A stretch of DNA of 64,000 nucleotides, taken from contig NZ_CP036250.1 in assembly GCF_004300825.1 (NCBI RefSeq), positions 186,001 to 250,000 of the forward strand, in the 5' to 3' direction. Below, in pieces: positions 7,777 through 57,522 of this stretch. The stretch comes from Egicoccus halophilus. Its GTDB lineage: Bacteria > Actinomycetota > Nitriliruptoria > Nitriliruptorales > Nitriliruptoraceae. The notes under the pieces were generated by a model. The model saw only the letters and a program-made list of their open reading frames with translations, made no database searches and was not told the origin of the DNA. Position 1 is the first letter of the stretch. Each line of letters starts with the position of its first letter. The position numbers and the translations under genes were made by a program.

Positions 7777-9413
7777 ATGTCCGTGGCCCCGTCCGTCCGC
7801 GCGCAGGCGGCGCCGATCCCGGCCCCGCCGCTGCCGGCGACTCCCGGTCTCGACGCCCTGCTCGCGCGCGGCCGACGACGGGTGCGGCGGGTGCGGCTCA
7901 CGGACCGGATCGGTCCGGTCACCGCCGCGGCCGCCGGGGTGGTGCTGCTGTGGCTGCTCGCGGCACAGGTGGTGCTCCTGCCCGTGGTGACCGGGCCGGT
8001 GCTGGGCGCCGGAGCCGCGGCGGCCCTGCTCGTCCTCGTCGCGGTCGCGCTGCGGCCGGTCCCCGACGAGATGGCGGCCGGCGCGGTGGACGGGTTACTG
8101 GACGCCAGGGACCGCTACCGCACCGCGCTCGAGTCGCGGCAAAACGGTGCCGACGCGCCGCTCGGCGACCTGGCGCGTCGCCAGCTCGTGGAGGCGGACG
8201 CGGCGGCCGCGGACGTGCGCAACCTGCCGCCGGCTCCCCGACCAGGGGGGCGCTGGCTCCTCCTCGCCGGCGTGCTGGTGATCGCGGTCGCGGCGCTGGC
8301 GGCCGCACCGGACCGGCATGGCGACGAACGCGACCGACGGGCTCGCGAGGCCGCGGCGGTCGAACGGGCGGCCGAGGACCTCGAGCGCGACGCGCAGGAG
8401 CTCACCGCAGCGGGCGAGCCCGGCGCCGCCGCCGCGGAACGCTTGCAGCAGGTCGCCCAGCAGCTCGACGGACGCTCGCTCGACGAGGCGCTCGAGCGCC
8501 TCGCCGCCGAGCGGGGTGCCCTGGCACGTGAGCTCGACCCCGGGCGCAACGGACAGCGGGCCGCGCTCGACGGACTGGCCCGAGAGCTCGGTCGCGAGCC
8601 GCTGGGGGCGGGCGAGTCGGTGCGGGCCCAGTTCGACGCCCTGGCCGCCGCGCTGGCCGCCGGCGGGGTCGAGGACACCGCCGCACTGGCCGAGCGGCTC
8701 CGGGAGTTGGCCGCGGCCGTCCGGGGCGGTCAGCCCGAGCTCGCCGAGGCACTCACCCAGGCGGCCGAGGCGGCCGCAGCGGGGAACCAGGCCGGTGCCG
8801 CCGGGGCGGCCTCCGCGGCATCGGGCGCCGTCGGCAGGGCGGTCGCGTCCGCCGCCGGGCAGGGCGCTCTCGAAGCCACCGACGCCCTGCTCGACCAGGC
8901 ACAGCGCACGCTGCGCGAGGCCACCGCCCCTGGACAGGGCCAGGGCCAGGGACAGGGCCAGGGCCAGGGACAGGGCCAGGGACAGGGCCAGGGCCAGGGA
9001 CAGGGCCAGGGCCAGGGACAGGGACAGGGCCAGGGACAGGGGCAGGGGCAGGCGGGCCAGGGTGGCGGTGGCCGCGGCGTGCAGCCGGGTGACGGCAACA
9101 CCGGCACGGGCCGGGTCCCCGAGCCGACCGGGACGGGCGCCACCGGTGCCGGCCCCGAACTCGACACCGTGTTCGCGCCGCCCCGCGTGGGCAGCGAGGG
9201 CGACGACTGGTACCTCGGCGGCAGCGACTCGGGCCAGGGTCCCGACGCCCAGGTCGGCCGCGGCCTCGGGCCGGGCGAGGTCAACGACGCCCTCGTCCCC
9301 TACCGCGACGTGCTCGGGACCTATCAGGACCGCGCCACGCGCACCATCGACCGGCCCGGCTTCCCCGCCGGCCGCCGCGATCTGGTGCGCGACTACTTCG
9401 ACCAGCTCGCCCA

Positions 9414-22378: not shown

Positions 22379-22800
22379 GGCTTCCCTCCGGTTCGTCGCT
22401 CCCCGCGCGAACCCTAACGGTGCCTCCCCCGGTCTGACTAGACCCAGTTTTCCGCTCGACGCGGAGCGCACGCGCGACCACGGGGCGAGCAGGACCATCC
22501 ACCCGCCGGTTCCGAACAGCCATCCGACCAGGGCTTGCCTCGGTCCCGGCGGCGAGGTAGTCCGAGACCCAGCCCAGCCTGCGCTCCGGTACGACGCACG
22601 TGCGTCGGGAGCCGGCCCTGTGCAGATCAGCACGCACGGATCGACGGTCGCGGCGGCCCTGAGCGCGATCCGTGCGTCCGCACGTCGGTCGGTGCGGACC
22701 AGGGCGCACGGAAGGCTCCGGCCAGCCCGTCCGGTTGCAAGCCCCGACGTACGGCGGATCGATCCGACCGCCAGGCCCTCGGAGCCGGCAGGCGCCGGCG
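22379..22800. other. Intergenic region upstream of whiB copy 1
   Basis: No gene is supported here. The central 135 bases (22587-22721) are one copy of a structured repeat found again at 50863-50997. The remainder presumably includes the whiB promoter, but I see no strong consensus elements. Confidence 0.5.
22587..22721. repeat. Structured intergenic repeat, copy A (135 bp)
   Basis: Aligns without gaps to 50863-50997 with 12 mismatches (about 91% identity). Internal structure: the palindrome ACGCACGTGCGT, a 12-bp stem ACGCACGGATCG/CGATCCGTGCGT (22632-22643 with 22666-22677) enclosing 22 bases, and a 7-bp stem TCCGCAC/GTGCGGA (22677-22683 with 22692-22698). All three stems are conserved exactly in both copies, while five of the differences fall in the main loop. 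The strand of function is unknown. Confidence 0.9.
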
Positions 22801-50066: not shown

Positions 50067-50495
50067 TCACCGGGTGGGATGTGGCACCTCGATGACGGGA
50101 AGCTGCACGATGGCGGCGAAGTCGTGCACGTTGCTGGTGAAGAGGGGAAGGTCGTGCGCGATCGCCACTGCGGCGATCATCGCGTCGTAGGAACGCGCTG
50201 CGGGCTTCCGTCCGGCCTGGCGCAGCGCGGCCGCGACCTGGCCGAACGCCCTCGCCGCGGCTGCATCGAAGGGCAGCGGATCGAAGTCGGCTTCGGCTTG
50301 CTGAAGATGGGCCTGTCGGGCAGCGCGTTCGGCCTCCGTCCGAGCGACGAGCGGCCCGACGGACAACTCCGCCAGCGTGATGGTCGAGATGAGCGGCTCG
50401 ACGGGAAGCGCCGTGGCGTCCGGCAGCTGCGGGAGCAGGAGCAGCGTGCTGGTGTCCAAGAGGCCCCGCGCCGGCCGGTTCGCAGGCGGCGTCAC
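50067..50495 (-). CDS. vapC: VapC-type PIN-domain toxin
   Basis: 142 residues. The PIN ribonuclease fold has its acidic residues: D14 in LLDTS, E in TLAELSVG, D in SYDAMIAA, and a terminal SNVHDF segment in place of the usual TxNxxDF. VapC toxins cleave tRNA or rRNA. The GTG start overlaps the antitoxin stop by four bases (GTGA), so toxin synthesis depends on antitoxin translation. The inverted repeat arms GTCCGGAAA (49994-50002) and TTTCCGGAC (50029-50037) downstream may terminate it. Confidence 0.92.
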   Translation of the reverse strand: MTPPANRPARGLLDTSTLLLLPQLPDATALPVEPLISTITLAELSVGPLVARTEAERAARQAHLQQAEADFDPLPFDAAAARAFGQVAAALRQAGRKPAARSYDAMIAAVAIAHDLPLFTSNVHDFAAIVQLPVIEVPHPTR

Positions 50496-50734
50496 AGCGT
50501 GGGATCGAGGAGTTCGTCGAGGTCCTCGCGCAGCCGGACAGGGTCGACGTGAGGGAGCCGGCGCCGACGCTCGAGCAACACCTCCGCCTTCACGGCGGGC
50601 CGTCCGACCGGACGAAGCTCAGCAACCGGCTTGCCCGAGCGGGTCACGGTGAGGCTCTCGCCCGCCGCGACGCGGTCGACCACGTCTCCGCCGTGGTTGC
50701 GGAGCTCTCGGATGCTGACCTCGGGTGCGCCCAT
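50492..50734 (-). CDS. vapB: Phd/YefM-type antitoxin
   Basis: 80 residues. The N-terminus SIRELRNHGGDVVDRVAAGESLTVTRSGKPVAEL is the Phd/YefM DNA-binding fold; the C-terminal ~30 residues (LREDLDELLDPTL) form the toxin-binding tail. The pair is probably autoregulated. The ATG at 50734 lies seven bases after a TACACT -10 hexamer. Confidence 0.93.
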   Translation of the reverse strand: MGAPEVSIRELRNHGGDVVDRVAAGESLTVTRSGKPVAELRPVGRPAVKAEVLLERRRRLPHVDPVRLREDLDELLDPTL

Positions 50735-50741
50735 GGGGCGT

Positions 50742-50747
50742 AGTGTA
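50742..50747 (-). promoter_or_regulatory. -10 element TACACT of toxin-antitoxin operon
   Basis: TACACT on the minus strand is followed after seven bases by the antitoxin ATG, which predicts a leaderless mRNA. No strong -35 is visible. The GTGATACAC sequence around it could also serve as an operator. Confidence 0.5.
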
Positions 50748-50862
50748 TCACCTGTGAGACATCGACGAAGGTCAGGCGATTGGCGATCGGATGCCTCCAT
50801 CGGCATAAGCCTGATCGCGATGCGCCCATCCCGATCAGCTGCATGCGACCCAGGTGCACGTT

Positions 50863-50997
50863 CGGTGTGACGCACGTGCGTCGGAAGCCGGCCGTGTGCA
50901 GATGAGCACGCACGGATCGACGGTCGCGGTGGTACCGAGTGCGATCCGTGCGTCCGCACGTCGGGCGGTGCGGACCAGGGCGCACGGATGGCTCCGG
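50863..50997. repeat. Structured intergenic repeat, copy B (135 bp)
   Basis: Gapless partner of 22587-22721, same orientation. The 12-bp stem ACGCACGGATCG/CGATCCGTGCGT, the ACGCACGTGCGT palindrome and the TCCGCAC/GTGCGGA stem are all unchanged. It occupies the 462-base gap between the toxin-antitoxin promoter and the tRNA-Ser integration site, where I see no protein gene. Confidence 0.9.
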
Positions 50998-51142
50998 GCA
51001 GACCCTGCCGGCGGCACCCGGGCGAGAACCGCGTTGTGGCGCGAGCGCCGCAGGCCGAATTCCGGCGCGGTGGAGCGGCTCAGGCGGCTGCTGACACCAC
51101 GTGGCTCGCGGAGGCCGCCGGCCGGGACCGTCCCGGTACGCG

Positions 51143-51196: not shown

Positions 51197-51252
51197 GCGG
51201 AGGGTGGGGGATTCGAACCCCCGAGGGATGTGACTCCCAACACGGATTCCAG
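51197..51252. repeat. attL: 56-bp copy of tRNA-Ser 3' end
   Basis: Identical over 56 bases to 57433-57488, the 3' part of tRNA-Ser from the anticodon loop to the discriminator base. Divergence begins at the next base on both sides. It is the 3' end displaced by integration. Confidence 0.95.
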
Positions 51253-51369
51253 GCGTGTCCACGCCGTTTGGCCTCGTTGGGCCTCGTCTGCCGAAACATG
51301 CTCTGACCAGCGGAAACGCGCGGCTCGCGTCACGTGACGTCTCGGCTCGTAGGGCGTCGTCTGTCGGCG

Positions 51370-51394
51370 TTCGTGTCCACGATGTGTCCACGGA
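51370..51394. repeat. Left arm-type repeat (two GTGTCCAC sites)
   Basis: A 25-bp sequence containing GTGTCCAC twice with an 11-base period. It matches 57329-57353 at 23 of 25 positions in the same orientation, about 118 bases inside attL. Another GTGTCCAC lies at 51255-51262 beside the core. Probable integrase arm-binding sites. Confidence 0.65.
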
Positions 51395-51402
51395 CACGCT
51401 CG

Positions 51403-51456
51403 CGGGGTTCCATAGAGCGGCGGGGTTCCATGGCCTGCCGGGGTTCCACGGCCTCG
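51403..51456. repeat. Three 18-bp iteron-like repeats
   Basis: CGGGGTTCCA recurs at 51403, 51421 and 51439, exactly 18 bases apart, with similar flanks. This lies just inside the left arm repeat. Candidate binding sites for a replication or recombination protein. Confidence 0.7.
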
Positions 51457-51477
51457 GTCGAGGGGTAGCGTCCGGCC

Positions 51478-51717
51478 ATGCCTCGCACCCCCGAGACGGC
51501 GGGTCCGTGCCCGATGTGCGCGATGGATGGTCGCGCCGAGGTCGCGTGGACGCGTGAGCACCAGCACGCCGCGCACCCGCGCGTGGTGGACGCGTGCCGT
51601 CGCGCAGCAGGGCGGCCGTCGATGGAGCAGCGGCAGGAGTCGGCGCGCCTCGCGTGGCGGCCGTCGCTGAACCCGTCGCCGGGGCGGCTGCCCTACGTCG
51701 CGAGGTCGTCGAGGTGA
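51478..51717 (+). CDS. Small CPMC-motif protein, doubtful
   Basis: 79 residues, starting at ATG 51478 without a good ribosome-binding site. It contains CPMC near residue 11 and a further Cys near residue 40, a half zinc-ribbon at best. GC3 is high enough to be coding. Its 3' end overlaps the leftward gene at 51693 by 25 bases. Could be a genuine small element protein or a chance frame. Confidence 0.4.
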   Translation: MPRTPETAGPCPMCAMDGRAEVAWTREHQHAAHPRVVDACRRAAGRPSMEQRQESARLAWRPSLNPSPGRLPYVARSSR

Positions 51718-51887
51718 GGGGGTGCCATGCTGGCGGGGGGTGCCATCGTCTCCGCGTCGAGGCGGGCGAGGTCAGCGCGTAGGCCGTCGTCGTCGAGCGC
51801 CTGGAGCTTCGCGAGCGTGTCGGGGTAGCTCGCCTCCAACGCGTCGAGCCGCGCTCGTAGCTCTCCGGTCGTCGCGCATCCGCACAC
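51693..51887 (-). CDS. Small helical element protein, 64 aa
   Basis: 64 residues from the GTG at 51887, chosen because GAGGAG lies eight bases upstream. It begins with a CGC cysteine pair and is mostly one amphipathic helix (ELRARLDALEASYPDTL, then LQALDDDGLRADLARLDA), suggesting a coiled-coil or small adaptor. It is the last gene of the element's leftward operon, past a hairpin. Family not recognised. Confidence 0.6.
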   Translation of the reverse strand: MCGCATTGELRARLDALEASYPDTLAKLQALDDDGLRADLARLDAETMAPPASMAPPHLDDLAT

Positions 51888-51964
51888 GGGCCGGCTCCTC
51901 GGTCGACGGCTCCAGCTCGCGCAGGAGCGTCGCACGTCGACGGTGGGTAGCTGGGGGTACCCCA

Positions 51965-51999
51965 CCGCCCCGGACGGCCGGGAGGCGCGTCCGGGGCGG
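51965..51999 (-). terminator. Hairpin downstream of capsid gene
   Basis: CCGCCCCGGACG and CGTCCGGGGCGG form a perfect 12-bp stem with an 11-base loop between the capsid stop and the 64-residue gene. No T-run; may be partial. Confidence 0.5.
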
Positions 52000-52076
52000 G
52001 GAGGATGCGACGAGCGGGGCGGCCCCGGTCACCCGCAAGGACCGGAAGGAGCGGCGACCCCGCGTGCCGTCGCGAG

Positions 52077-53663
52077 CTAGGCCGAGGTCACGAGGTCGAC
52101 GGTGCCCGACGTCGTGCCGTTCGGGTCGACCGGGACGTCGATGGCGAGCGGGGTGAGCGGTGCGACCCGTGCGACGTTCTCGAACACCTCGCGGAACAGC
52201 TCCGCGTCGTTGACCGCGTTCAGCTCGTGGTCCCGAGTCCACCCGAGGTGGAGCATCCCGCCGTCGAGGAGCACGTAGGTGCCCTCGGCCCACAGGGTCG
52301 CGCGGACCGTCTCGGGGAACGGCACCAGCGGTCCGGCCGCCTGCGCGCCGAACACCTGCGCGTCGAGGACCCACACGGGCGACACGCCCCGAACGGAGAA
52401 GTGCTCCGCGAGCTGCGCGTCCGAGACGGCGGTCGTGGAGTCTCCGGGGAGCTGCCGGGCGAGGTCGACGCGCAGGAGGTGGCGGGTCCACGACGGCAGC
52501 GCGACGCGCAGCACCGCCTCGTCCGAGAGCCGGTTCCGGGAGCGGTACCCCGCCGCGGCGAGGTCGACCGCCGACAGCAGGTCACGCGACGCGCCGAGCA
52601 CCTGCGCGGCCGCGACGACCGTCGCGTCGTCGACGATGGTGTCGAGGAGCTTCGCCTCCGCGGTCCGTGCGGCAGCGGCCTCCAGCAGCGTGAGGGCCTG
52701 CTGTACCTGCTCGGGCTGGAGCATCCGGGCGAAGTTGCCGACCCGGAGCCGCTCGACGACCGCGTCGACGCGGACCTCGACCTCCTCGGGGCACTCGATG
52801 CGCCACACGTTCTTGGTCGCGGGGCCGGTCGGGGGCTCCGCGCCCGCACCGGCGTCGGGGTCGACGTCGTGCGCCTCGGTCCACACGGTCACCCCGGCGG
52901 CCGCGTCGGCGAGCGACGCGCCACGGGTGAAGCGGATACCGCCGCGGGACGTATCGAACGCGGGCAGGGCCGCACGGAGCGGCCGGGCTGCGGTCGACCA
53001 CACACCGAGGTCGTAGTGCGCCTCCAGCGGCGCGCAGAGCCCACCGGCCGCGACCAGCGCGTCCGTACCCACGACCGACGCGACGACCGCGGTGTCGTGC
53101 TCGGGCTCGCCGGTGAGGCGACGGTCCTCGGGGTAGTCGGCCTCCAAGGTGACCACGGTCCCGCCGTCACCTCGGCCGCGGAGCAGGTCGCGACCTGCCG
53201 CGACGAGCGCGGTGGTCACCCCGTCGGCGTCGAGGGGCTCGCCGGCGGCCATGAGCGCCCGCGCACGCGAACCGTGGGGAACGCGGACGCCGTTGCGGGC
53301 GTGCCGGGCGGCGTCGGCGAGCGACGGGCGGCGCGGGGTCGAGGGGGCGTCGGGGCCGCGGACCGAGGCGACGAGCTGCCGGGCGTCAGCGGCGCGGCGC
53401 TCGGATGCGGCGCGGACCGTCTCGACCGCTGACGCGCACACGGTCGCGATGTCGAGGTCCGCAGCCTCGGGAGCGTCCTCGGGGACCAGCTCGTCGAACG
53501 CAGCAGACAGCTCCGCGTCGAGCCGGGAGAGGTCGCCGGCCGGGAGGTTGGACAGGTCCCCGTCGCGTGCTCCGTCGACGAGGTCGACGAGGTCGGGCGA
53601 GAGGGTCCCCGCGTCAGCGAGGGCGGACAGGGCGGCGCGCAGTTGCGCGAACGAGAGCTTCAC
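52077..53663 (-). CDS. Phage-type major capsid protein (HK97 fold, actinophage family)
   Basis: 528 residues from the GTG at 53663, with GGAGG seven bases upstream. The C-terminal ~330 residues carry the pattern of actinophage major capsid proteins: GLCAPLEAHYDL, TSRGGIRF, the VxVxAxxxxLxxGNF segment, SRNRLSDEAVLRVALPSW, and the C-terminal LLDGGMLHLGWTRDHELNAVNDAELF. The N-terminal ~170 residues are helical and charged and could act as a scaffold or delta domain, normally removed by a protease that is not encoded here. It is the only virion structural gene seen in the element. Confidence 0.82.
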   Translation of the reverse strand: MKLSFAQLRAALSALADAGTLSPDLVDLVDGARDGDLSNLPAGDLSRLDAELSAAFDELVPEDAPEAADLDIATVCASAVETVRAASERRAADARQLVASVRGPDAPSTPRRPSLADAARHARNGVRVPHGSRARALMAAGEPLDADGVTTALVAAGRDLLRGRGDGGTVVTLEADYPEDRRLTGEPEHDTAVVASVVGTDALVAAGGLCAPLEAHYDLGVWSTAARPLRAALPAFDTSRGGIRFTRGASLADAAAGVTVWTEAHDVDPDAGAGAEPPTGPATKNVWRIECPEEVEVRVDAVVERLRVGNFARMLQPEQVQQALTLLEAAAARTAEAKLLDTIVDDATVVAAAQVLGASRDLLSAVDLAAAGYRSRNRLSDEAVLRVALPSWTRHLLRVDLARQLPGDSTTAVSDAQLAEHFSVRGVSPVWVLDAQVFGAQAAGPLVPFPETVRATLWAEGTYVLLDGGMLHLGWTRDHELNAVNDAELFREVFENVARVAPLTPLAIDVPVDPNGTTSGTVDLVTSA

Positions 53664-53812
53664 GAGTGGGCCTCCAGAGGGGCACGCGAGCACGGATGGT
53701 CGTCGTGCGCTCCCAGCGGGGGCGTCCGGGTCCGCTATGCGTCCCGACGCTCGGCCCAGCGACTACGTCTAGGGCCCACCTGCGCACCGCCAGCGTACCG
53801 CCGGCACCTCCG

Positions 53813-54229
53813 CTACCGCGGTTCCTCGGGCACCTCCTCGTCCTCGCGCAGCGATGCCGCGACCATCTCCGCGACCTCGGCCAGCTCCGGCCGGGACACG
53901 CCGTGCCCTTCGACGGTGCCGAACACGGACGAGAGCGCGAGGAAGGTCCCGCCGACGAGCCCGTGAGCGGCCGCGAGGTCGCCCACGACGGCCGCGATGG
54001 CCTCCGCAGGGTCCGGGGCAGGGACGGGCACGCTCACGCGCTCCGCGGGCTCCACGGCCGCGCGGAGCAGGGCCGGCTCGACCGTCGTGGCGAGCTGACC
54101 GCGGAGTACCTGCGCGCTCCACTCGTCGTCGTGCTGCTCGCACCAAGAGACGACGAGCCCGAGCGTGTCCGCGAGCGCCTGGAGACGGTCGGTCGGAACG
54201 AACGTGCCGAGGGTGGGTTCAGCGCTCAC
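53813..54229 (-). CDS. Element protein of unknown function, 138 aa
   Basis: 138 residues from the GTG at 54229 (GAGG seven bases upstream). The sequence is Ala/Glu/Val-rich and mainly helical, with VPTDRLQALADTLGLVVSWCEQHDDEW near the N-terminus and an acidic C-terminal tail EDEEVPEEPR. No membrane span and no family recognised. It lies between the initiator-like and capsid genes in the leftward operon, where phiRv-type elements carry small proteins. Confidence 0.6.
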   Translation of the reverse strand: MSAEPTLGTFVPTDRLQALADTLGLVVSWCEQHDDEWSAQVLRGQLATTVEPALLRAAVEPAERVSVPVPAPDPAEAIAAVVGDLAAAHGLVGGTFLALSSVFGTVEGHGVSRPELAEVAEMVAASLREDEEVPEEPR

Positions 54230-54337
54230 GCGGGTACCTCCGGGTCCGCCGCGGTGTCCGCGGCCGGGTCGATGTGCTGCTACGGGCCTCGGTTCGGCCG
54301 GAATCTGCGCTTCCGCACACGGTCGGGTCACGTGTGG

Positions 54338-55108
54338 TCATCCCGCGACCTGCCTCGGCGAGCCGTCGCACCAGCGGCACCAGGGCTCGTCCGCGAGGTC
54401 GTACGAGCCGACCGGGGCGGGGTCGCCGCATGTAGAGCACCGAGGGCTGTCCTCTGCAGTGTCCCCCTCCCTCGACTCGACTCGTCTCGGCTCGACTCGA
54501 CTCGACTCCCCCCGGTGAACCCCCTGCGCATCCCCCATGCCAGGGGGATGCGACTCCGCGGGGTCGGGGGCCGCTCGGGCATCCCCCTGCGCATCCCCCT
54601 CCCGATGGGGGATAGGAGCCCCATCCGCAGGGGCATCCTCGACCGCGAACGTGAGGTCGGGACGGGCGCTGCCGATGCCGTGGGCGAAGTCGGGCGCGTG
54701 CGTCGCCGCGAGCCGGTAGGCCTCGCGCTTGAGCGGTGTCTCGGCGACCTGGAGGAACAGCGCCACGGCCGGCCCCATCGCGCGGTTGACCTTCACCTCG
54801 CCGGTGCGAGGGTCCGTGCCGTGCTTGAGCGGACGGTCCCGCAGCGCGCGACGGTCGAGCACGACCTCGGCCTCCGGGTCGTAGGACGCGATGCCGAGGC
54901 GGTCCAGCTCGTCGAACGCGGCGAGCACCTCGTCCTCGCTCATGCCGGTGTCGAGCGCGACCTGACCGGCGGACAGCTCGTAGAGCCCCTCGCTGATTCG
55001 GGCGCGGCACGTCCACACGTAGAACGCGGTCACCTGCGCGTCACGCGACGCGCGGCGCATCTCTCGTCCCCACACGTTCGGGGACACCTGATGGAAGCGG
55101 GCAGGCAT
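54338..55108 (-). CDS. Replication initiator-like winged-helix protein
   Basis: 256 residues. The N-terminal ~110 residues (FHQVSPNVWGREMRRASRDAQ, then LYELSAGQVALDTGMSEDEV and ELDRLGIASYDPEAEVV) have the winged-helix layout of phage replisome organiser/initiator proteins. The middle third is low complexity, and the C-terminus is a zinc ribbon (CSTCGD and CRWCDG). Two notable DNA features lie inside the low-complexity part: a CTCGA pentanucleotide run (54471-54510) and a cluster of GCATCCCCC motifs (54528-54610). The ATG at 55108 has AGGGG upstream. The function is inferred by fold resemblance only. Confidence 0.65.
   Translation of the reverse strand: MPARFHQVSPNVWGREMRRASRDAQVTAFYVWTCRARISEGLYELSAGQVALDTGMSEDEVLAAFDELDRLGIASYDPEAEVVLDRRALRDRPLKHGTDPRTGEVKVNRAMGPAVALFLQVAETPLKREAYRLAATHAPDFAHGIGSARPDLTFAVEDAPADGAPIPHREGDAQGDARAAPDPAESHPPGMGDAQGVHRGESSRVEPRRVESREGDTAEDSPRCSTCGDPAPVGSYDLADEPWCRWCDGSPRQVAG
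54471..54510. repeat. CTCGA pentanucleotide microsatellite in initiator-like gene
   Basis: Eight consecutive 5-bp units, five exactly CTCGA and three with a changed base (CTCGT, CTCGG, CTCCC). The unit is not a multiple of three, so gain or loss of one unit would shift the frame before the C-terminal zinc ribbon. Confidence 0.85.
54528..54610. repeat. GCATCCCCC motif cluster, candidate origin
   Basis: GCATCCCCC occurs at 54528, 54579 and 54591, and inverted at 54543-54551, with partial copies near 54604-54610. The pair at 54528/54543 forms a stem. Placement within an initiator gene is typical of phage and plasmid origins. Confidence 0.5.
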
Positions 55109-55128
55109 CGGAGAGCCCCTCTCGGCCG

Positions 55129-55344
55129 TCAGGCGTGGTCGGGGGCGCTCACGAACCGAGCGAGCGCGTCACGGCTCACACGGAACGCACGGCCGAGCCG
55201 GATGACCGGCAGCTCGCCTCGGTGGACGAGTTCGTAGACCGTGGACCGGTCGCACCGCAGGAACGCGGCGACCTCGTCGACACGGAGAACGTCGGGCAGG
55301 GAGTCGAGGCTCGACGCCTCGGGCTGGCTACGCATCGGGAACAC
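55129..55344 (-). CDS. Excisionase-like helix-turn-helix protein
   Basis: 71 residues (68 if the ATG at 55335 is used). It is a MerR-type winged helix of the excisionase/HTH_17 class: VLRVDEVAAFLRCDRSTVYELV, then GELPVIRLGRAFRVSRDAL. Such proteins direct excision with the integrase or regulate early genes. It is the first gene of the leftward operon and faces the integrase across a 240-base control region. Confidence 0.85.
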   Translation of the reverse strand: MFPMRSQPEASSLDSLPDVLRVDEVAAFLRCDRSTVYELVHRGELPVIRLGRAFRVSRDALARFVSAPDHA

Positions 55345-55430
55345 CGTTCGTCAGGGCCGCGCGTCACGACGCGCAGCCGCTCCGGTGTCCCTCCCGGTGC
55401 CGAGAGCGCCCGGCGCTCCCGATGCCGGGG

Positions 55431-55459
55431 ACCATACGGCCGACGAAGCGGGACGTCAA
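55431..55459 (-). promoter_or_regulatory. Leftward sigma70-like promoter of xis operon
   Basis: On the minus strand TTGACG (55454-55459) and TATGGT (55431-55436) are separated by exactly 17 bases. It is the best consensus promoter in the window and should drive the leftward operon. Confidence 0.65.
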
Positions 55460-55464
55460 TCACC

Positions 55465-55494
55465 CTGACCACACGGTGCGGAACCGTGTACGGT
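55465..55494 (+). promoter_or_regulatory. Rightward promoter with operator palindrome, for integrase
   Basis: CTGACC (55465-55470) and TACGGT (55489-55494) are 18 bases apart. The spacer holds the inverted repeat ACACGGT-N5-ACCGTGT (55471-55489), so a bound protein would block RNA polymerase. The promoter hexamers are weaker than the leftward pair. Confidence 0.5.
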
Positions 55495-55584
55495 CCTGGC
55501 ACACGATGCCGCTTGGCGGCTCGTTTCAGCAAACGAGACGGTCCGTGGACACGGCGACGGACACGGGCAGCGGGAGGGACACCG

Positions 55585-56814
55585 ATGCGGGGCACCATCG
55601 AGCGCTACGAGACGAAGGCCGGGGAGCGGCTCTACCGCATCCGGTGGGACCTGCCGACGGGCTCGGACGGGCGGCGTCGGCAGCGGACGCGGCGCGGGTT
55701 CCGGACGAAGCGCGAGGCGTCCGCCGCGCTCGCGGAGCTGCTCCACGAACAGGCGAACCGAGGGCGTCCCTCGGTCCGGTCGACGGTCACGCTCGACGAG
55801 TACGCGCGTGGGTGGCTCGACCAGCGCCGCGACCTGCGGCCGACCGCGAGGGACAACCTGACCACGGCGCTCGTCCACGTCCTCCCGCGGCTCGGGGCGC
55901 GTCGGGTACAGGAGGTCACCCCCGAGGACGTCGCGACGCTCTACGTCGACCTCGCGGAGCGTGGGAAGCGGGCGGGCACGTGCCGTACCGCCGGGGTCAC
56001 GTGCGCCGAGCACGGCTGCACCCCGGAGCGGCACCAGGGGCTGTCCGAGAAGTCGGTCGGGCACGTCCACGCGGCGCTACGTGCCATCCTCGCGGCGGCG
56101 GTCGAGGACGGGCTCATCGCGAGCAACCCGGCGGACACGAAGCGGGCGAAGCAAGCGCGGGCGCGCGGCGGCAAGACGTCCGCGAAGGTCACCGAGGACC
56201 GCTGCTGGTCGACCGAGCAGGCGCGCGCGTTCATCGACGCGACGAGCGAGGACCGGCTCGGGGCGCTGTGGACGACGCTGCTCGGGACCGGGCTGCGCCG
56301 GGGCGAGGCGCTCGCGCTCCGGTGGGAGGACGTCGACCTCGACGCGGGCACGCTCCACGTCCGCCGCACCGTGACCGCGGTGCGCGGGCAGCTCGTCGAG
56401 GCGGACGGCGGCAAGACGGACGCGGCGACGCGACGCATCGTGCTCGGGGACGACCTCGTCGCGCTGCTGCGGGCGCACCGGGCTCGGCAGGTTGAGGAGC
56501 GGCTCGCGGCCGGCCCCGCGTGGCAGGACACCGACGCGATGTTCACCGAGGTCGACGGCCGGCCGCTCCACCCGAACAAGGCGTCGACGACGTTCACACG
56601 CGCAGCCGCAGCGGCCGGGCTCCCGGCCATCGGCGTCCACGGGCTGCGCCACACACACGCGACGATGCTGCTCCGTGCGGGGGTGCCGATTCCGGCTGTC
56701 GCGCAGCGGCTCGGGCACGCGAATCCGGCCATCACGCTGGCCGTCTACAGCCACGCGCTACCCGCGGACGACGCACTCGCGGCCGACGCGACGGGGCGTG
56801 TCCTGTTCGCTTAG
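55585..56814 (+). CDS. Tyrosine recombinase (integrase) of the element
   Basis: 409 residues from the ATG at 55585 (GGGAGGG upstream). An arm-binding N-terminal domain (AP2-like, residues 1-60) and core-binding domain (65-180) lead to the catalytic domain with R238 (GLRRGEAL), H352 and R355 (HGLRH), H378 (LGH) and nucleophile Y388. An insertion at residues 133-150 has three Cys and two His with zinc-finger-like spacing. It would recombine the 56-bp core in tRNA-Ser. It lies close to the intact tRNA end, as is usual. Confidence 0.95.
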   Translation: MRGTIERYETKAGERLYRIRWDLPTGSDGRRRQRTRRGFRTKREASAALAELLHEQANRGRPSVRSTVTLDEYARGWLDQRRDLRPTARDNLTTALVHVLPRLGARRVQEVTPEDVATLYVDLAERGKRAGTCRTAGVTCAEHGCTPERHQGLSEKSVGHVHAALRAILAAAVEDGLIASNPADTKRAKQARARGGKTSAKVTEDRCWSTEQARAFIDATSEDRLGALWTTLLGTGLRRGEALALRWEDVDLDAGTLHVRRTVTAVRGQLVEADGGKTDAATRRIVLGDDLVALLRAHRARQVEERLAAGPAWQDTDAMFTEVDGRPLHPNKASTTFTRAAAAAGLPAIGVHGLRHTHATMLLRAGVPIPAVAQRLGHANPAITLAVYSHALPADDALAADATGRVLFA

Positions 56815-56836
56815 GGCCAGCCGCCAGAGAGCTGCT

Positions 56837-57307
56837 CTACCCGTCGGTCTCGTAGGTGACCTCGCGCGCGCGTGCCATGAGCGCGTCGAGTGCGTCGTGG
56901 ACCTGCGCCCGACTAGTGGCGGGCGAGCCGTCCTCGTCCTCGGGATGCACCAACCCCATCGAGCGCGTCGACGTTCGCACGTACAGCGAGAACAGGTGGT
57001 AGGCGTGCTCCGCCAGCGTCCGGGTCTCGGCATCGGGGTGCGCGACGGCGATCCGCCGCAGCTTGTCGAGGTGGGTCTGAGACACCTCGGTCCCGACCGC
57101 CTCTAGGCGACCCTCGGTCGTTATCTCCAGGTCGGTCGCCTGAACCTCTAGGCCGACGACGGCCGACACCGTTTCGTCGAGCCAGCGCCGCAGCTCTCGG
57201 GCCTGTTCGGCCCGCTCGCTACCGCGTTGGGCGAGCCGCGCGCCCAACCAGACGCCGCCTAGGGACGCGATCCCCACGAGCACGGCCGCCGCCAGTTCTC
57301 CGAGCAC
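56837..57307 (-). CDS. Single-span membrane protein of the element, unknown
   Basis: 156 residues from the GTG at 57307, chosen for AGGGGG seven bases upstream; a TTG at 57361 would place the right arm repeat inside the gene. An N-terminal span (residues ~4-22) is followed by a charged helical region with coiled-coil character (RGSERAEQARELRRWLDETV). It is separated from the integrase stop by 22 bases and points the other way, the position of accessory or exclusion genes in phages. Function unknown. Confidence 0.65.
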   Translation of the reverse strand: MLGELAAAVLVGIASLGGVWLGARLAQRGSERAEQARELRRWLDETVSAVVGLEVQATDLEITTEGRLEAVGTEVSQTHLDKLRRIAVAHPDAETRTLAEHAYHLFSLYVRTSTRSMGLVHPEDEDGSPATSRAQVHDALDALMARAREVTYETDG

Positions 57308-57328
57308 CTGGAACCCCCTGACCGCCGA

Positions 57329-57353
57329 TTCGTGTCCACCTTGTGTCCACGGA
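57329..57353. repeat. Right arm-type repeat (two GTGTCCAC sites)
   Basis: Matches 51370-51394 at 23 of 25 bases, same orientation, with GTGTCCAC twice at an 11-base period, about 80 bases inside attR. Probable integrase arm-binding sites. Confidence 0.65.
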
Positions 57354-57376
57354 GCCGGCAACGCCCGCTAGGCGAG

Positions 57377-57411
57377 GAACGCCCCGGCCGGCTCGGTCGG
57401 GGCGTTCTCGC
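57377..57411 (-). terminator. Element-borne terminator for tRNA-Ser
   Basis: GAACGCCCCG and CGGGGCGTTC arms form a 10-bp stem beyond the 3' end of tRNA-Ser, inside the element. It takes the place of the displaced hairpin at 51143-51171, with which it shares the core ACGCCCCGGCC. Confidence 0.6.
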
Positions 57412-57432
57412 TGGTCAAACGGTGATTCTATA

Positions 57433-57488
57433 GCGGAGGGTGGGGGATTCGAACCCCCGAGGGATGTGACTCCCAACACGGATTCCAG
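57433..57488. repeat. attR: 56-bp core within tRNA-Ser
   Basis: Exact copy of 51197-51252, forming the 3' part of the intact tRNA gene from the anticodon loop to the discriminator. Confidence 0.95.
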
Positions 57489-57522
57489 CCGTGCGCCATA
57501 GGCCGGACTAGGCGAACCCTCC
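57434..57522 (-). tRNA. tRNA-Ser(GGA)
   Basis: An 89-base class II tRNA. Acceptor GGAGGGT/ACCCTCC, anticodon stem CACGG/CCGTG with loop CTGGAAT (anticodon GGA), a long variable arm, T-arm GGGGG-TTCGAAT-CCCCC, discriminator G, no encoded CCA. Its 3' part is supplied by the integrated element and keeps the gene functional. Confidence 0.95.

Follow-up and report, generated by a model that had tools for sequence, protein, structure and literature searches.

Introduction

In Mycobacterium, regions that combine an integrase with a major capsid protein (MCP), phiRv1 and phiRv2 included, have been described as candidate phage-inducible chromosomal islands (PICIs); those with a tyrosine integrase use tRNA genes as their sites, genes for replication, scaffold or terminase are present in some, and their mobilisation by helper phages has been proposed and is unproven (PMC10654092). 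Capsid-forming PICIs (cf-PICIs) encode an MCP together with a head protease, portal, connectors, small and large terminase subunits (TerS, TerL) and an HNH nuclease, and the Streptomyces satellites MulchRoom and MiniFlayer also have capsid genes of their own, MulchRoom along with a tyrosine integrase (PMC10690885). The phage-inducible chromosomal minimalist islands (PICMIs) of Vibrio lie beside fis, carry a DUF3987 primase but no capsid gene and are packaged, in concatemeric form, into helper heads of full size; one of them, PICMI115, comprises 6,110 bp with an integrase, an AlpA/HTH_17-type regulator and a replication gene (PMC10803314). Here we compare with these systems a 6.2-kb unit in the tRNA-Ser(GGA) gene of Egicoccus halophilus (GCF_004300825.1, contig NZ_CP036250.1), which we analysed within a stretch of 64 kb, the window, to which its coordinates refer.

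With an integrase of the tyrosine type, an MCP, attachment (att) repeats and a tRNA gene as its site, the unit has the features of the candidate PICIs. An initial annotation of this DNA had likened it to phiRv1 and phiRv2, and since these are counted among the published integrase-plus-MCP regions (PMC10654092), the comparison holds as far as the kind of element is concerned. Its different actinobacterial lineage and its size of 6.2 kb, and probably also its MCP family (MCP_Sipho/PHROG_777), set it apart from the mycobacterial elements. phiRv1 and phiRv2 are about 10 kb long and have a protease gene. A satellite-encoded capsid of the HK97 fold would be common to the unit and the cf-PICIs, but only the MCP is recognised in it, whereas protease, portal, connectors, TerS, TerL and HNH nuclease are not; a related unit in another genome does have TerL. 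The PICMIs are equally minimal, with integrase, HTH_17-type regulator and replication gene, yet the Egicoccus unit is inserted in tRNA-Ser and not beside fis, has no DUF3987 match among its proteins and possesses a capsid gene. MulchRoom and MiniFlayer have complete head and packaging modules and are missing key replication genes; here it is the reverse. In contrast to a complete temperate prophage, the unit has no recognised terminase, portal or tail genes. It thus belongs to a known kind, the elements with integrase and MCP, as an unusually small member from a poorly studied lineage.

Results and Discussion

Gene content

We consider it probable that the unit is a tRNA-integrating, capsid-encoding phage satellite. 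An integrase, an excisionase or regulator and a replication gene of its own are present, and a full set of virion genes was not recognised, which is the gene content expected of a phage satellite. The boundaries reported in the initial annotation, exact 56-bp direct repeats around about 6.2 kb in tRNA-Ser(GGA), are correct to the base; the period from copy to copy, and with it the size of the unit, is 6,236 bp. Family matches back each of the proteins named there, the integrase (PF00589), the excisionase (TIGR01764), the initiator-like protein (PHROG_1701) and the capsid protein (MCP_Sipho), and the portal, terminase, protease and tail genes reported as missing had no family match among the eight element open reading frames (ORFs) searched. 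The genes for excisionase, initiator, a 138-aa protein and MCP are co-directional on the minus strand and likely form one operon, with the integrase gene divergent from them (Table 1). Of the element proteins run through PADLOC, none was identified as a defence protein.

The main genes are all open and have a coding-like GC content at third codon positions (GC3). This speaks against the chief rival explanation, in which deletions stripped a temperate phage at tRNA-Ser of its genes for packaging, portal, protease and tail and left behind an integrase, an excisionase, an initiator and an orphan capsid gene. The exact att core and the intact arm sites described below count against such a remnant as well, and the ORFs searched contained no recognised pseudogene remains of portal, terminase or tail genes.

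The major capsid protein

The MCP matches the NCBIfam model MCP_Sipho with 319 bits (cut-off 75) and PHROG_777 with an E-value of 1e-62, but not Pfam Phage_capsid. An AlphaFold model built from 26 sequences shows the HK97 fold at residues ~225-522, preceded by a long helical N-terminal part. Compared with the PDB, this model reached Z-scores of up to 16, with 15.5 for HK97 itself and 14.9 for the capsid protein of the cf-PICI EcCI2 (9gyi_B, root-mean-square deviation 3.2 over 240 residues). Encapsulins tied with phage capsids in these comparisons, as would be expected if the gene encoded an encapsulin-like nanocompartment or another domesticated HK97-fold shell on an integrative element. We regard this as highly improbable: by sequence the protein falls into phage families, the long helical region before the HK97 domain is retained, and the adjoining genes are those for integrase, excisionase and initiator, with no cargo enzyme seen nearby.

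A search with the single MCP sequence retrieved no relatives in genome contigs or viral contigs, and a search with a three-row alignment retrieved 30 viral loci and one metagenome-assembled genome, in which several long ORFs surround the MCP gene. Among phages, most relatives are large actinophages, and their MCP gene adjoins genes for a capsid maturation protease and a head-tail adaptor. Arthrobacter phage Atuin, Actinomycetia phage DSL-LC01 and others with the PHROG_777 type of MCP have homologous proteins (~39-40% identity over ~60% of the protein); they are tailed phages of 129-194 kb with protease and head-tail genes flanking the MCP gene, whereas these were not recognised in the Egicoccus unit. 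That the MCP family is otherwise one of large tailed phages, in this gene context, is what a prophage remnant would lead one to expect.

Related units with a capsid gene

We searched for relatives of the MCP in 199 related genomes, 66 genomes of the class and 396 of the phylum, the sets overlapping. The family was found in two other units, each with a tyrosine integrase and lying between direct repeats at a tRNA gene. One, in genome G010 (locus L004), spans 10.2 kb with a 38-bp repeat at tRNA-Leu and contains, in this order, integrase, a helix-turn-helix (HTH) protein, excisionase, helicase (PHROG_6012), TerL (PHROG_9, 5e-27), a 143-aa protein and an MCP that matches ours at 48%. The other, in genome G088 (locus L005), spans 8.3 kb with a 46-bp repeat at tRNA-Cys and contains an MCP, a weakly TerS-like protein (Terminase_4, 0.015), HTH genes, an integrase and, adjoining the tRNA gene, a membrane-like protein that fills the slot of the 174-aa protein of the Egicoccus unit and is unrelated to it. 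At the end of the G088 unit there is a weak AbiU2/HEPN-like protein, and 1.4 kb beyond it the tRNA-Cys repeat occurs a third time (L005, 5234-6710), suggesting an older tandem insertion.

The 138-aa protein encoded between the initiator and MCP genes is 37% identical over 113 aa to the 143-aa protein located between TerL and MCP in G010, so that its pairing with the MCP recurs there. A single-sequence AlphaFold2 model of it is helical at low confidence (pLDDT 56); judging by this model the protein is probably all-helical, and we consider it a candidate scaffold, size or packaging factor.

In a tree of the MCPs, the Egicoccus and G010 proteins are sisters (95/86) and the G088 protein groups with two viral contigs. 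Because the tree does not unite the three units, we do not claim a single satellite lineage. The MCPs lie on at least two lineages of the tree, which suggests that compact capsid-bearing units arose or were kept more than once; the units of this MCP family probably have two or more origins. The occurrence of two further compact units, with related MCPs and their own intact repeats at other tRNA genes, is a further point against a prophage remnant.

Integration site and unoccupied relatives

The insertion leaves an intact tRNA-Ser(GGA) gene. Beyond the exact 56-bp core, an imperfect similarity of ~55 bp continues on the side opposite the tRNA gene, across a GC-rich hairpin, possibly the terminator of the tRNA gene. 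The 64 kb contain the motif TGTCCAC(NN)TGTGTCCACGGA at two places only, one 122 bp inward of attL and the other 80 bp inward of attR, compared to 0 occurrences in shuffled sequence; since the integrase has an arm-binding domain, the pair is read most simply as its arm sites. For repeats and arm sites such as these, 0 are expected by chance. The GC content of the unit equals that of its surroundings.

Among the three further genomes of the genus, two (G002, G003) have a tRNA-Ser(GGA) gene with the same right-hand neighbours as in the window. On the element side of this gene, we found no integrase-like gene among their longer ORFs. When the left flank of the window, one repeat and the right flank are joined, the product aligns in one piece across the repeat to G003 (451 bp, 77%) and to G002 (416 bp, 75%). 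Outside attL, 59-88 bp match sequence lying downstream of tRNA-Ser at the unoccupied sites. Neither genome contains a copy of the MCP, and the capsid gene is therefore no long-standing part of the chromosome. The satellite-like reading of the initial annotation would have been contradicted by a lack of relatives with an empty site or by a chromosomal capsid gene in them, and thus it stands on both counts.

The tRNA-Ser site is an integration hot spot. Another integrase lies beside the same gene in G001, a diverged second copy of the repeat is found ~11.5 kb from tRNA-Ser in G007, and in G010 the site is taken by a unit of 4.8 kb in which unrelated genes accompany a fragment of an integrase. 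The last of these looks decayed; it is, together with the phage affinities of the MCP, the evidence in favour of that explanation. Given the intact genes and ends and the other compact units, we disfavour it and hold it to be rather unlikely.

Just outside attL, the window encodes a VapBC-like toxin-antitoxin pair (50067-50773). A stretch 79% identical to it occurs in G007, a member of another genus, at the same position past the outer repeat of the 11.5-kb tRNA-Ser unit (L079, 148-845). A dispersed repeat of ~150-220 bp (50809-51026 and 22587-22728), one copy of which lies shortly outside attL, is present in ~12 copies in the host genome with 81-95% identity; the genomes of the family that were searched have no comparable multi-copy match, and it is possibly a family similar to miniature inverted-repeat transposable elements.

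Replication gene and putative origin

The initiator had no match in viral contigs and phages and no convincing match in the PDB. Its relatives stand beside an integrase, a P27-type TerS or a primase in tRNA-linked elements, and in one case in a phage-like region (L121). At tRNA-Leu (L117), the relative is accompanied by an integrase, and in another locus (L120) by a CHC2 zinc-finger protein. Near tRNA-Met in G276 (L118, 205-2266) the gene after it encodes a P27-type small terminase (Terminase_4, 4e-11); this pairing of replication gene and TerS resembles that of Staphylococcus aureus pathogenicity islands (SaPIs). Beside tRNA-Ala in G189 (L119, 5762-15139), an integrase and a related initiator occur with two S78 prohead proteases, a different HK97 MCP and a minor tail protein; portal and terminase were not recognised among the ORFs inspected, and the contig terminates inside this unit.

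The initiator gene contains GCATCCCCC four times in 72 bp (54528-54599), adjoining a 10-bp tandem repeat, CTCGACTCGA (54471-54508). Only one other place in the window has a single 9-mer four times per 72 bp, a short tandem repeat at 8932-9054 with a GGGCCAGGGACA-like motif. In phage lambda the origin is situated inside the initiator gene O, and we propose the iterons, from their sequence and position, as a putative replication origin. The stretch is also coding, and amino-acid repeats may therefore contribute to the cluster.

These iterons, the arm-type repeats inside both ends, and the helical 138-aa protein with its homologue at the same place in a second element are additions to the initial annotation. 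Homologues of the 174-aa protein were searched for and none was found.

Table 1. Features of the Egicoccus halophilus unit, in window coordinates.
Feature	Position	Strand	Remarks
attL	51197-51252	+	exact 56-bp copy of the 3' end of tRNA-Ser(GGA)
Putative integrase arm-type site TGTCCACGATGTGTCCACGGA	51374-51394	+	just within the left end
Weak possible ORF	51478-51717	+	79 aa, contains Cys/His; GC3 0.89; no family match
Weak possible ORF	51693-51965	-	90 aa, downstream of the capsid gene, start probably later; GC3 0.86; no family match
HK97-fold MCP	52077-53663	-	528 aa from GTG with GGAGG ribosome-binding site (best start); 538 aa from 53693
Small protein	53813-54229	-	138 aa from a start with GGAGG ribosome-binding site; between initiator and capsid genes
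Replication initiator	54338-55108	-	256 aa; DnaD-like helicase loader, N-terminal part, PHROG_1701 6e-9
Iteron cluster, putative replication origin	54471-54599		inside the initiator gene
Excisionase	55129-55344	-	HTH_17 / TIGR01764 ('excise' family)
Tyrosine integrase	55585-56814	+	409 aa; PF00589 E=2e-25 and Arm-DNA-binding domain
174-aa protein	56837-57361	-	hydrophobic N-terminal segment; between integrase gene and attR
Putative integrase arm-type site TGTCCACCTTGTGTCCACGGA	57333-57353	+	just within the right end
attR	57433-57488	-	3' 56 nt of the intact tRNA-Ser(GGA)
tRNA-Ser(GGA)	57433-57522	-	gene left intact by the insertion

A possible life cycle

For the unit as a satellite, we infer helper dependence, replication, particle formation, packaging and transfer. 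Integrase and excisionase, for which the att structure is seen, would move the unit into and out of tRNA-Ser. On the excised 6.2-kb circle, the DnaD-like initiator would bind the iterons in its own gene, recruit the host helicase and start replication. The MCP and the small helical protein, acting as scaffold or size determinant, would build a shell or co-assemble with helper subunits, and a co-infecting tailed phage would provide portal, protease, terminase, tail and lysis. In the host genome (3.98 Mb), we found no Phage_portal match, no TerL by PHROG_9, other portal and terminase families not having been tried, and no second MCP; if the element moves, the most likely helper is therefore a phage that enters from outside.

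A T=7 head can hold far more DNA than 6.2 kb, so that smaller shells or concatemers would be needed. That the unit has an MCP and, next to it, a small helical protein suggests shells of its own or modified ones. Tentatively, we propose that the MCP and a small scaffold-like partner are all that the satellite brings and that it borrows the portal, protease, terminase and tail of the helper, diverting the capsid by replacing the shell protein and not by a size-switching scaffold or a whole head of its own, and that compact units with this MCP family exist in more than one class of Actinomycetota; this is a possibility that we would sooner doubt than assert. The same pair of genes, with neither portal nor protease recognised, could also be read as an interference device, whose MCP subunits chiefly poison or resize the helper capsid and do not form a shell for the element, and the capsid-size factors of SaPIs and P4 do act by binding the helper MCP (PMC12409344; PMC10690885). 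We think this improbable, as the known switchers are small scaffold-like proteins and not full-length MCPs and as co-assembly is hypothetical.

Several points weigh against the unit being a satellite. A prophage reduced to integrase, excisionase, initiator and MCP would resemble the unit. The initial annotation had advised a search of related genomes for the same gene order and for empty tRNA-Ser sites; the sites were found, and the exact gene set is in no other genome searched. Past ~90 bp the left flank is not syntenic in G002 and G003, and the ~55-bp similarity beside the tRNA gene is present in the element itself, so that on the left the match to the unoccupied sites rests on 59-88 bp only, in addition to the well-conserved right side.

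Conclusions

Satellites are known to deal with capsids in different ways: by a small protein that shrinks the head (P4, SaPI), by a whole head of their own (cf-PICI, MiniFlayer) or without any change (PICMI). If the proposed reading is true, a single shell protein beside a replication gene in 6.2 kb would stand between the first two of these strategies, and the unit could reveal how capsid-forming satellites evolve. It would also be a defined test case for the many integrase-plus-MCP regions of Actinomycetota that are considered prophage-like and whose mobility is unproven, including phiRv1 and phiRv2 of the tuberculosis bacillus.

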